Positions 3,757 through 17,848 of a DNA stretch of 33,430 bases are shown piece by piece. Source of the DNA: Opitutales bacterium (GTDB lineage: Bacteria; Verrucomicrobiota; Verrucomicrobiia; Opitutales; UBA953); the NCBI GenBank assembly GCA_007280935.1, contig QYQK01000089.1, positions 1-33,430 on the forward strand, given 5' to 3'. Position 1 is the first letter of the stretch. Every line of letters starts with the position of its first letter. A program made the position numbers and the translations under genes. The notes below the pieces were generated by a model, which saw nothing but the letters and a program-made list of their open reading frames with translations, was not told the DNA's origin and searched no databases.

Positions 3757-4397
3757 TTCTCGAATCGAAAAATATTCTCTACAAAGGCGTCTACCATGGG
3801 GCGCGGGCTTTAATTGAAGTATTTTCCACTTTAGAAGTAGAAGGCTGGGAGAATATTCCCCAGGGGTCTTGTCTGTTTGCCTCCAACCACCAAAGCATGA
3901 TTGATCCGCCGTTACTCGGTTCGTGCCTGCCGCGCGAAATCTCTTTTGTGGCCCGCCGCACACTTTTTGATAACCCCCTTTTTGGTTTCGTGATTCGTGC
4001 CTGCCATTCGATCCCGATTGATCGCGGTGCCGCTGACCTTGGCGCGATCCGAGCAGCCTTGACGGCCTTGGCCGATGAACGCGGCCTGCTCATCTTCCCG
4101 GAAGGTACCCGCAGCATCGATGGCGTCATTACCGCCGCCAAAGCCGGAGCCGGCCTTTTGGCGTGCAAGTCCGGAGCTCCGGTTGTTCCGATTCATATCC
4201 GCGGGGCGCGCGACGTCCTGGCGAAAGGTTCACGCTTTCCGGTGGGCTCGGCTCGCATCAGGGTACGTTTTGGCCCCGCTTTGAAAGCCGCGACATATGA
4301 TCCGGGCAAAGATCACCCCGAACGCTTCTTGGAAGCGTCTCGGAGAATTTTAGAAGCGATTAAGTCACTCCCTGACCACCGCGATCCCGGTCTTTAG
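3753..4397 (+). CDS. plsC: 1-acyl-sn-glycerol-3-phosphate acyltransferase
   Basis: NHQSMIDPPLLG (HX4D) and FPEGTRS motifs; ATGA overlap with upstream gene. Confidence 0.9.
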   Translation: MILESKNILYKGVYHGARALIEVFSTLEVEGWENIPQGSCLFASNHQSMIDPPLLGSCLPREISFVARRTLFDNPLFGFVIRACHSIPIDRGAADLGAIRAALTALADERGLLIFPEGTRSIDGVITAAKAGAGLLACKSGAPVVPIHIRGARDVLAKGSRFPVGSARIRVRFGPALKAATYDPGKDHPERFLEASRRILEAIKSLPDHRDPGL

Positions 4398-5521
4398 GAA
4401 ATCCGTTGCGGCATGACCACGCAAAGGAAGTCATCCTTCAGTCCGCGAATCACCCCAGGGGACATCTCGTCCTTGAATTCAAAATCAATTTCGTCCTCTG
4501 TTAACGCCTTGAGAGGATCGATAATATATTGAGGGTTGAAGGCGATGTTCACTTCTGGGCCATCGTATTTTATGGCGATGGGCTCGTGGGCTTCGCCGCT
4601 TTCTGACTTTGCGGAAATTTCCAGGTTCTGCGTTTTCTTCGAAACCGTCATGCGGATCGTGTTGTTGCGATCATCCGTCATTAAGGAGGCACGGTTCACA
4701 CTCTCGAGAATTTTTTCGCGCTCGAGCCGGACTTTCGAACCGGCTTCCTTCGGGATGACTTGCCGGTAGTTCGGGTAATTTCCTTCGACAACTTTGGAGA
4801 CTAATTGAATGCGATCGACGAGGCCTTCTTCGTTCTTCGGGATATCAATGGTGAAGCCTACCTGGCGCTCGTTATTCGAGATATGGGCCATGCCACCCGC
4901 TTTCAATAACCGCATTAATTCAATGATGGTACGGGCGGGTAAAATTAACGCTAAGGGCTTATCCGCACCGTCTAATTTGCGGACACATTTCGCTAAGCGG
5001 CGTCCGTCGGTGGCGACGACGGTTAATTTTCCTTCGGCAAATTCGAAGAAGACCCCATTTAAAATATAGCGATTTTCGTCGGATGATTGCGCGTAGCTTA
5101 CTTTTCTCAGCATGTCGCCGAGATCGTCTTGGTTGATAGAAATCGTCGGTTGACCCGTGAAGTTTGAAATTGGAGGAAACTGGTCTGCGGGTAATCCTGC
5201 GATTTGGAAAACGGAACTCCCGGAAGTTATTTTGACCCGTTCTTTACCGGTCAGCTCGACGATGGTATCGGCACTGGAAAGAGCACGTACGATGGGGACG
5301 AGTTTTTTAACCGGTAGGGTGATTCGTCCTGGGGTGGAGACGGAAGCTTTGATACGGCAGCAAATACCGAGATCAAGATTGGTGGTTGTCAGGGTGATGG
5401 TATCACCTTCCGCTTCGATGAGGACATTTTGAAGGATCGGCATCGTCGCGCGATTACCCACCACATTGGTGACGCTGGAGAGTCCGTTAAAAAAATGGTT
5501 TCGATTGACCTTGAACTTCAT
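4394..5521 (-). CDS. dnaN: DNA polymerase III subunit beta (sliding clamp)
   Basis: MKFKVNRNHFFNGLSSVTNVVGNRATMPILQNVLIEA..., NPQYIIDPLKAL, C-terminal VMPQRIS. Start set at MKFKV (5521) rather than the ORF-track start at 5542. Confidence 0.95.
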   Translation of the reverse strand: MKFKVNRNHFFNGLSSVTNVVGNRATMPILQNVLIEAEGDTITLTTTNLDLGICCRIKASVSTPGRITLPVKKLVPIVRALSSADTIVELTGKERVKITSGSSVFQIAGLPADQFPPISNFTGQPTISINQDDLGDMLRKVSYAQSSDENRYILNGVFFEFAEGKLTVVATDGRRLAKCVRKLDGADKPLALILPARTIIELMRLLKAGGMAHISNNERQVGFTIDIPKNEEGLVDRIQLVSKVVEGNYPNYRQVIPKEAGSKVRLEREKILESVNRASLMTDDRNNTIRMTVSKKTQNLEISAKSESGEAHEPIAIKYDGPEVNIAFNPQYIIDPLKALTEDEIDFEFKDEMSPGVIRGLKDDFLCVVMPQRIS

Positions 5522-5603
5522 GGTGTGGAAGAATTGAGGCACAGAGGGGGGTGAGGCAACTACGCAATGAGCTCATTCCTAAGCCCCTTCCTGGAGGGCT
5601 GTA

Positions 5604-5630
5604 TCTAATTATCTATTCATATATAAATAC
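5604..5630. promoter_or_regulatory. AT-rich tract, candidate DNA unwinding region
   Basis: tctaattatctattcatatataaatac directly flanking the DnaA-trio run in the dnaN-pssA gap. Confidence 0.5.
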
Positions 5631-5645
5631 CAGTAGTAACAGTAG
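5631..5645 (+). promoter_or_regulatory. Run of five DnaA-trio motifs
   Basis: CAG TAG TAA CAG TAG, each matching 5'-[TC]A[AG]-3', i.e. the 3'-[GA]A[TC]-5' DnaA-trio consensus. Confidence 0.6.
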
Positions 5646-5657
5646 GCTTCGGAATTC

Positions 5658-5666
5658 TGTGGATAG
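5658..5666 (-). promoter_or_regulatory. DnaA-box-like site
   Basis: TGTGGATAG, reverse complement CTATCCACA, one mismatch to TTATNCACA; 12 nt from the DnaA-trio run. Confidence 0.6.
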
Positions 5667-5740
5667 TTTCACAACCCGTTGGTTTATGCCTGATATGGGA
5701 AAAACGCTGGCCTGTGCCGATGATGCGAACAACCCTTGGC

Positions 5741-5749
5741 TTGTTCACA
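5741..5749 (+). promoter_or_regulatory. DnaA-box-like site
   Basis: TTGTTCACA, one mismatch to TTATNCACA. Confidence 0.4.
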
Positions 5750-5778
5750 CATAACCCTGAGCACGAACTTCTCACGCC

Positions 5779-5787
5779 CTATTCACA
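5779..5787 (+). promoter_or_regulatory. DnaA-box-like site overlapping the pssA stop codon
   Basis: CTATTCACA, one mismatch to TTATNCACA. Confidence 0.4.
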
Positions 5788-6676
5788 ACCTGGACACATC
5801 TTCATCGTCATCTTCCGGGGCGGGGTCAATTTCACTCTTTTTAAGCAAGAAAAAATGACGAATAATCCCCCAGAGGATGTAGCCCAGGAACAGGGCGGGA
5901 AAAGAGAACTCGGGATACCGGAACAAGACCGCCGCACAGATGATAATAAGAATAAAACCTCTCGTTCGCGCCCGGGAATTCCAATCCAGTTTCTTAAAGC
6001 TCGGGAAGCGGACATTGCTGATCATCAGGTAAGAAATCACCAACATGAGTGGCAAGAGGGTCCAAGACCACGCGAGGAGCGTGGGGTCTAAAGAGTCTTT
6101 AATTTCCCCGTTCCGCAACACGCGTGAGAGGACTAAGACCAGAGAGGCCATCACGCCAGCGGCCGCCGGCGAAGGCAGCCCCACAAAATCACCCCCAGCG
6201 GCGCGTTTCTCATTTCCTGGCACCAGCGGGTTGGTCAGCACGTTAAAGCGGGCCAGCCGCACCCCCACGCAGAGTAGATAGACAAAGGCCAGCAGCCAGG
6301 TGGCCAATTGGACGTTATCATTTTCCCCTGGTTTGATGATCAGGAAGCAGGCCATGAGCGCAGGGGCGACCCCGAACGAAACCGTATCGGCGATGGAATC
6401 AAATTCGGCCCCGAAGAGCGATTCACGGTTCGTCGCACGGGCGATTAAGCCGTCGAACAGATCGCAAACGCAGGCGAAGAGGATGAACCAGACGGCCCAG
6501 ATATAATGGTCGGCGCGTTCGGCCGCTGGAAGCGCGGTGAAGCGAGCTTCGATGCAATTCTTGATGGCCAAGAAGCCGCAGAGCATATTGCCCGCCGTAA
6601 AAAGGTTCGGCAGGAGGTAGATATGGGCGGCTTCTTCGGGCGAAGAATATGCAGGTTTTAAAGGTTTTTGGGACAC
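5783..6676 (-). CDS. pssA: CDP-diacylglycerol--serine O-phosphatidyltransferase
   Basis: CDP-alcohol phosphatidyltransferase signature DLFDGLIARATNRESLFGAEFDSIAD, multiple TM segments, NLFTAGNMLCGFLAI. Confidence 0.88.
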   Translation of the reverse strand: MSQKPLKPAYSSPEEAAHIYLLPNLFTAGNMLCGFLAIKNCIEARFTALPAAERADHYIWAVWFILFACVCDLFDGLIARATNRESLFGAEFDSIADTVSFGVAPALMACFLIIKPGENDNVQLATWLLAFVYLLCVGVRLARFNVLTNPLVPGNEKRAAGGDFVGLPSPAAAGVMASLVLVLSRVLRNGEIKDSLDPTLLAWSWTLLPLMLVISYLMISNVRFPSFKKLDWNSRARTRGFILIIICAAVLFRYPEFSFPALFLGYILWGIIRHFFLLKKSEIDPAPEDDDEDVSRL

Positions 6677-14578: not shown

Positions 14579-16465
<1,887 letters not shown>

Positions 16466-16489
16466 AAGTTTCCCTCCGGGAGGAGAGAA

Positions 16490-17848
16490 TCACTTACCTA
16501 TGCAGAAGGAAGCAAAGAGCTTGTCCAGCATACGCTCATTATCAATTCGACCCACGACCTCCCCCAGGGCTTCCAGGGCCTCCCGCCCCCGGGCGGCGGC
16601 AAGCTCCGTCTGGATGGGGGCTTTGAGGTGGCCGTGGGCCAAAATGAGGGCTTCGGCCGCCCGGTGGAGGGCATCGGCATGGCGGACACTGACGACCAAA
16701 TCTTCGGCGCCCGGGGCGACCTCGCGTTCAATTAAGAGGGCACCGAGGCGGGCCCGAAGAGTCTCGTCATCCTCGCCGGGCAAAAGGCAGGTTCGCAGCT
16801 TGGTAAACTCTGGCAAAAAATCCTGCTGTTCGGCCGCTTCAGGTAAATCAGATTTATTGGCGATCACGAGCGTGCGCTTGATGTCCAAGAGCGTTATTAA
16901 TTCCGGCGGCAGGGCTGGGGGCTTAACGGAAGCGTCGACGACGAGAAGCAGAAAATGCGCCGCGCGCGCTTGCTCAAGGGAACGAAGCATTCCGGCATTT
17001 TCGAGCGCCGTGCCACCACCGCGTAAGCCAGCGGTATCGACGGCCGTCACGTGCAGCGGCAAGCCAGCGATGGGCGCTTCCAAGTAATCGCGCGTGGTGC
17101 CCGGTTCGGCGCTGACGAGTGCGCGATCCGCGCCGGCCAAGAAGTTAAGCAAACTGGATTTGCCCGCATTTGGAGCACCGACCACGGCGACCCTTAATCC
17201 GTCGCGGAGCGCGCTATCGTGTCGGGCCGTCCGAGCGTATCCATTAAGTTCTGACGCAATCTGGACCAATCTGGATGCGGGTCCCGTGGGGTCTTCAACG
17301 GGCAGGTCCTCTTCCGGAAAATCAATGTGCGCTTCCAGTTCAGCCAAGACTTGCAAGAGTCGATCGGTCCAGTGGGCAATCTTTTGGCCAACTTCGCCGG
17401 CCAGCATTCGTCGGGCGGAAACGAGCGCACGCTCTGAACTGGCATGAATGAGATCGGCCACGGCTTCTGCTTGGGTGAGGTCCATCCGGCCGGCGAGAAA
17501 GGCGCGACGCGTGAACTCGCCAGGCTCGGCCATGCGGCCGCCGCGAGCGAGGCAATCTTCGGTCAGCCGGCGGACGAGCAGGGGATTGCCGTGACAAGTG
17601 ATTTCCAACGAGTCATTGCCCGTGAAAGATTTTCCCGCGACCCAAAGGACGGCGACGACTTGATCGATCGGCTTCCCGGCAACGTCGCGCCAGATAGCGG
17701 GGGTGGCCCGACGTTCGGCGAGAGGTAATTTACGATGCAGTGCCTCGGTTGCGATTTTGGCCGCCAGAGGGCCGTCGATCCGCAGAACGGCAAGGGCCGA
17801 GCGCCCAGCAGGGGTGGCGGCAGCGACAATCGTTTCGGCGGAGGACAT
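16490..17848 (-). CDS. mnmE: tRNA modification GTPase MnmE
   Basis: DTIVAAAT-like N-terminus (ETIVAAATPAGRSALAVLRIDGP), G1 GAPNAGKSSLLN, TTRDY, DTAGLR, NKSD, C-terminal FASFCIGK. Confidence 0.95.
   Translation of the reverse strand: MSSAETIVAAATPAGRSALAVLRIDGPLAAKIATEALHRKLPLAERRATPAIWRDVAGKPIDQVVAVLWVAGKSFTGNDSLEITCHGNPLLVRRLTEDCLARGGRMAEPGEFTRRAFLAGRMDLTQAEAVADLIHASSERALVSARRMLAGEVGQKIAHWTDRLLQVLAELEAHIDFPEEDLPVEDPTGPASRLVQIASELNGYARTARHDSALRDGLRVAVVGAPNAGKSSLLNFLAGADRALVSAEPGTTRDYLEAPIAGLPLHVTAVDTAGLRGGGTALENAGMLRSLEQARAAHFLLLVVDASVKPPALPPELITLLDIKRTLVIANKSDLPEAAEQQDFLPEFTKLRTCLLPGEDDETLRARLGALLIEREVAPGAEDLVVSVRHADALHRAAEALILAHGHLKAPIQTELAAARGREALEALGEVVGRIDNERMLDKLFASFCIGK

Follow-up and report, generated by a model that had tools for sequence, protein, structure and literature searches.

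A predicted chromosome origin with a DnaA-trio unwinding module between dnaN and pssA, away from dnaA, in an Opitutales bacterium

The window analyzed here is a stretch of 33,430 nucleotides, contig C23 of an Opitutales MAG whose assembly comprises 1.89 Mb in 144 contigs. The nearest named relatives are metagenome-assembled Opitutae (Verrucomicrobiota), lakes being the source of many of them, and the host is an uncultured freshwater lineage of Verrucomicrobiota. Two genes on the reverse strand, dnaN and pssA, border a short intergenic gap (Table 1). The dnaN product begins with MKFKV when read from the ATG ending at 5521, and this N-terminus is conserved among relatives. This ATG is probably the true start of dnaN, in which case the gap corresponds to the nucleotides 5522–5782. 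The genes mnmG and mnmE, which are often near bacterial origins, are located further right. As the preliminary description had noted, dnaA is absent from the window; it sits on contig C50, not adjacent to the gap, and the dnaA-linked gene order of the B. subtilis type is not seen. No Rfam match to a structured RNA was found in the gap, and the strand folds no better than shuffled sequences. The element GGCAAC near dnaN has a counterpart, GGCAAT, at the same place in many other Opitutales families.

Table 1. Predicted features in and around the dnaN-pssA gap (positions in the window)
Feature	Position	Strand	Remarks
dnaN, DNA polymerase III beta clamp	4394–5542	-	likely start ATG 5519–5521
GGCAAC element, between trios and dnaN	5555–5560	+	conserved in genus
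AT-rich tract, candidate DNA unwinding element	5603–5629		least stable 27-mer in window
Five DnaA-trios, CAG-TAG-TAA-CAG-TAG	5631–5645	+	based on sequence, rarity and conservation
12-nt spacer GCTTCGGAATTC, with CGGAA at 5650–5654	5646–5657	+	GGAA invariant, C in 28/29 genomes
DnaA box 1, TGTGGATAG (reverse strand CTATCCACA), putative anchor of the unwinding module	5658–5666	-	one mismatch to TTATNCACA
DnaA box 2, reverse strand TTGTTCGCA	5724–5732	-	two mismatches; based on sequence and alignment; missing from the preliminary description
DnaA box 3, TTGTTCACA	5741–5749	+	identical in 26/29 genomes
DnaA box 4, CTATTCACA	5779–5787	+	overlaps pssA stop codon; based on alignment of 29 genomes
pssA, CDP-diacylglycerol--serine O-phosphatidyltransferase	5783–6676	-	other border of the gap
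mnmG (gidA) 14579–16465 and mnmE 16490–17848	14579–17848	-	9–12 kb right of the gap

An AT-rich tract had been described at 5604–5630, followed by the trios, a 12-nt spacer and TGTGGATAG, and all of these are present at those positions or at the positions in Table 1. The claimed order and polarity of the four elements hold as well, and the spacer length also fits the published basal unwinding system (BUS). According to Pelliciari et al. (2021, PMC8287927), a BUS is recognised by three or more trios no further than 16 bp from a DnaA box, and spacer lengths peak at 10–13 bp. The gap has five NAN trios in the right polarity, a 12-nt spacer, which falls within this peak, and a one-mismatch box, and it would therefore belong to the predicted BUS set as defined there. 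The AT-rich element expected beside the boxes of an oriC is represented by the 27-mer starting at 5603, which has a nearest-neighbour sum of -24.0, the next best 27-mer in the 33-kb window having -26.9.

The DnaA boxes form a cluster of four box-like sites in 130 bp, three of which have at most one mismatch to TTATNCACA, and boxes 3 and 4 are well conserved. The latter two had been reported as one-mismatch boxes; this is right with respect to TTATNCACA, and each has two mismatches to the strict TTATCCACA. The search for the strict TTATCCACA box was uninformative, and matches to TTWTCCACA across the genome were at no more than chance level. All 31 Opitutales dnaA loci that were checked (L001 and L032–L061) encode the DnaA signature GGRDHGTV, while B. 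subtilis has GGRDHTTV. This change in the base-reading helix may explain the degenerate boxes.

The five-trio run is the only one in the window. The whole assembly contains one other, a CAG/CAA repeat on contig C53. When sequences were simulated with an order-1 Markov model, five-trio runs turned up in 0.1% of the 240-bp gaps and in 1.5% of the full-length windows; with a box within 16 bp, none was seen in 20,000 gaps or 200 windows. The earlier estimate of 1 in 16^5 per position holds if the composition is uniform. A 71-nt profile covering the AT tract, the module and box 1 (R1) matched its own genome only at the gap (E = 7e-21), with nothing else up to E = 10.

The gap was aligned among 29 genomes of the same genus, and 42 genomes constitute an extended set. 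Conservation of the trio run and boxes in the same gap of relatives, which had been proposed as a check, was observed in both sets. The conserved blocks are GGCAAC near dnaN, the TATAAATA tract, the trio run, the spacer GGAA, the core of box 1, and boxes 2, 3 and 4, and the module keeps its position, order and polarity throughout the genus. Among the 29 genomes, the AT tract core TATAAATA is nearly invariant, and the true register contains 3.9 consensus trios of five on average, compared with 0–3.14 in the shifted registers; most relatives have only three or four consensus trios in the run. Box 1 differs from TTATNCACA at one position in four of these genomes (the one with the window and the three closest to it) and at two to four positions in all others. 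Its conserved core across the alignment is GTGnAyAG, with the N position variable. Box 2 resembles TTATTCACG in many relatives. For box 4, 21 of the 29 genomes have either CTATTCACA or the perfect TTATTCACA, the latter being seen in 7. G062, a member of the genus that had not contributed to R1, is also matched at this gap (E = 4e-11). When R1 was run against 103 genomes of the order, all significant matches fell within the genus and none came from the same-family genera g22 and g23, which indicates that the module as such is genus-specific.

No substitution is seen in the spacer GGAA among the 29 aligned genomes, and box 1 is less well conserved. This GGAA may represent a degenerate DnaA box next to the trios, comparable to box 7 of B. 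subtilis, or may have a role of its own. An inverted repeat around box 1, CGGAA...TTCCG, was considered as a regulator site and rejected; it is present in some relatives and not retained in the window's own clade and in the clade of L023–L031.

In B. subtilis, the central A of a trio can be replaced by C, not by G or T, because A and C both offer an amine to Asn187 (PMC10721633). The five central positions in the 42 genomes are occupied by only A or C, both bases with the exocyclic amine, and never by G or T. Based on parsimony on the dnaN tree of the 42 genomes, these positions changed six times from A to C and once from C to A, the event counts depending on one reconstruction. At fourfold sites of dnaN, taken as a control, 39 A>C, 46 A>G and 26 A>T changes were counted. 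Six A>C changes out of six would occur by chance at about 0.35^6 = 0.002, a hand calculation for a rule that was read in the literature after the alignment had been seen. The first trio base is almost only C or T, and 16 of its 17 changes are exchanges between the two. The last base of trio 3 changes freely. The DnaA of this genome, aligned to 8btg with residue numbers placed by hand, keeps N187, I190, R202, E228 and the arginine finger R264, and has L for I193. These are residues that bind trios and serve in oligomerisation.

The position of the origin was examined by skew in relatives. G040 is assembled as one contig of 2.63 Mb; the GC skew sampled along it is negative between 1048 and 2247 kb and positive over the arc that starts at 2358 kb and continues past the contig end to 937 kb. 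Its dnaN, at 2292 kb, lies at the negative-to-positive switch, and the opposite switch is about half a genome away. Its dnaA, at 680 kb and 1.0 Mb from dnaN, is inside a uniform arm. In G055 (two contigs), dnaN (905 kb) lies within the interval of the switch (870–935 kb), and dnaA is 0.25 Mb away at 1154 kb. Within the genus, the 569-kb contig C4 of G059 has negative skew up to dnaN and almost entirely positive skew beyond it. Its cumulative GC minimum, calculated over a contiguous 180 kb, is at 93.8 kb, only 1.4 kb from the start of dnaN (92.4 kb). In G028, a very close relative with a dnaN 99% identical to that of the window, the minimum at 21.3 kb is inside dnaN (21.2–22.4 kb). A skew switch with the polarity of an origin is thus seen in G040, G055, G059 and G028; the skew of the 144-contig genome itself can be read only locally, and its close relative G001 has no more than a local GC switch. 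These patterns indicate that the origin is at dnaN in the order, this genus included. The GC-skew minimum had been named as a check on the locus; run on relatives, this check puts the minimum at dnaN in G040, G055 and G059, and in the first two dnaA is away from it.

The high-GC members of the genus (contigs G033:C1, G010:C6, G018:C7 and G058:C15; GC 0.67–0.70; L082–L101 and L238–L246) have GC skew inverted or displaced around dnaN, with the switch near dnaN or up to about 18 kb beyond. The inversion may reflect a changed mutational bias at high GC. The cumulative AT-skew maximum is about 5 kb from dnaN in G033, G010 and G018, and AT skew keeps the polarity of an origin. In two one-contig relatives (G073:C1 and G134:C1), dnaA is at base 31 and dnaN is about 0.25 and 1.06 Mb away. 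These sequences therefore appear to have been opened at dnaA, though dnaN is the likely origin.

With a probability of about nine in ten, the dnaN-pssA gap is predicted to be an oriC with a BUS of the B. subtilis type, located away from dnaA. The possibility of an origin separated from dnaA, raised in the preliminary description, is supported by the conserved module and by the skew minimum of relatives at dnaN and not at dnaA. What the sequences show is the anatomy of the gap, its conservation, the trio-like substitutions, the conserved contact residues of DnaA and the skew switch of relatives at dnaN. Binding of DnaA, unwinding and initiation at the gap would proceed as follows. DnaA would occupy box 1, and boxes 2–4 further right would gather more DnaA. 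From box 1, a DnaA filament would run leftward on one strand over the five trios; each trio would take up one protomer, whose Asn187 and adjacent residues would recognise the central A or C. Stretching of this strand would open the AT tract for helicase loading. Forks would then go both ways, the left one co-directional with dnaN.

An alternative is that the gap is an origin opened mainly in an E. coli-like manner, in which a strand of the AT tract is recruited to DnaA on boxes 2–4 and the trios and box 1 are secondary. It would suit the observation that box 1 is further from the consensus and less conserved than boxes 3 and 4. Clear constraint is however seen on the register of the trios, the length of the spacer and the pattern of substitutions, and the trio-contacting residues of DnaA are retained, which makes this alternative unlikely. 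Much less probable still is that the gap is only a DnaA-regulated promoter region of dnaN, with replication beginning elsewhere, for example at dnaA. The gap does form the 5' region of dnaN, transcription can be regulated through DnaA boxes, and DnaA-like boxes are also found upstream of dnaA. Against this, G040 and G055 have their skew minimum at dnaN and not at dnaA, G059 also has it at dnaN, R1 detects the module nowhere else in the genome, the dnaA locus included, and a promoter is not expected to obey rules of single-stranded trios; no sigma-70-like promoter facing dnaN was found within the gap either, although this is weak evidence. That the switch near dnaN marks a terminus or an inversion boundary in the genus, as the change from positive to negative GC skew near or shortly after dnaN in G033, G010, G018 and G058 might imply, is the least credible, since the change is from negative to positive at dnaN in the lower-GC G059 and G028 and in the outgroups G040 and G055, and the high-GC genomes keep both the AT-skew polarity of an origin and the same module.

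Compared with the B. subtilis BUS (incC, DnaA-box 6/7 and DnaA-trios), the predicted origin shares the arrangement of AT tract, trios, spacer and box on one strand, the trio consensus, the trio-reading residues of DnaA and more boxes beyond the module. It differs in lying at dnaN without dnaA, in the free last base of trio 3, and in having only one recognisable box beside the trios, which is degenerate in many relatives. The oriC of Synechococcus elongatus is also at dnaN, at the shift point of GC skew, with dnaA encoded elsewhere (PMC7198777), and its DnaA unwinds a BUS in vitro (PMC8287927). The location at dnaN and the separate dnaA are common to both, while the phylum is different and the origin described here is a prediction from sequence. 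Origins linked to dnaN are already known in cyanobacteria (PMC7198777), and BUS modules are predicted in most bacterial origins, namely in 85% of 2070 origins in Pelliciari et al. (2021, PMC8287927), whose main text names no Verrucomicrobia. Among the papers searched, none was found that connects Verrucomicrobia with DnaA-trios or with an origin linked to dnaN. The prediction would mean that an uncultured freshwater lineage starts replication at dnaN instead of dnaA. It also offers many orthologous natural variants of a DnaA-trio module, and since these match a biochemical rule of B. subtilis, the generality of trio reading can be tested with real sequences.

Other Opitutales families resemble the genus in having an AT-rich tract and DnaA boxes at the same place before dnaN, and dnaN is at the skew minimum in G040 and G055. 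The YAG run is absent from them. In place of YAG trios and a 12-nt spacer, many of them have TAT/TAA-type triplets (T at -7, -10 and -13; A at -6, -9 and -12) about 4 nt before TGTGAAYAA. With slightly less than even odds, the genus acquired a canonical long-spacer module of YAG-type trios and the other families keep a short-spacer TAT/TAA type; the natural variation would then amount to a mutational scan independently supporting the amine (A or C) rule outside Bacillus. For specialists, the value would be in a natural mutational series of trios and in a switch, inside a single order, of both trio type and spacer. Possible short-spacer modules are seen at the loci L033–L048, L062–L081 and L255–L260. 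In many of the short-spacer families, a pair of DnaA boxes (mostly TTATTCACA) separated by roughly 300 bp is also present upstream of dnaA.
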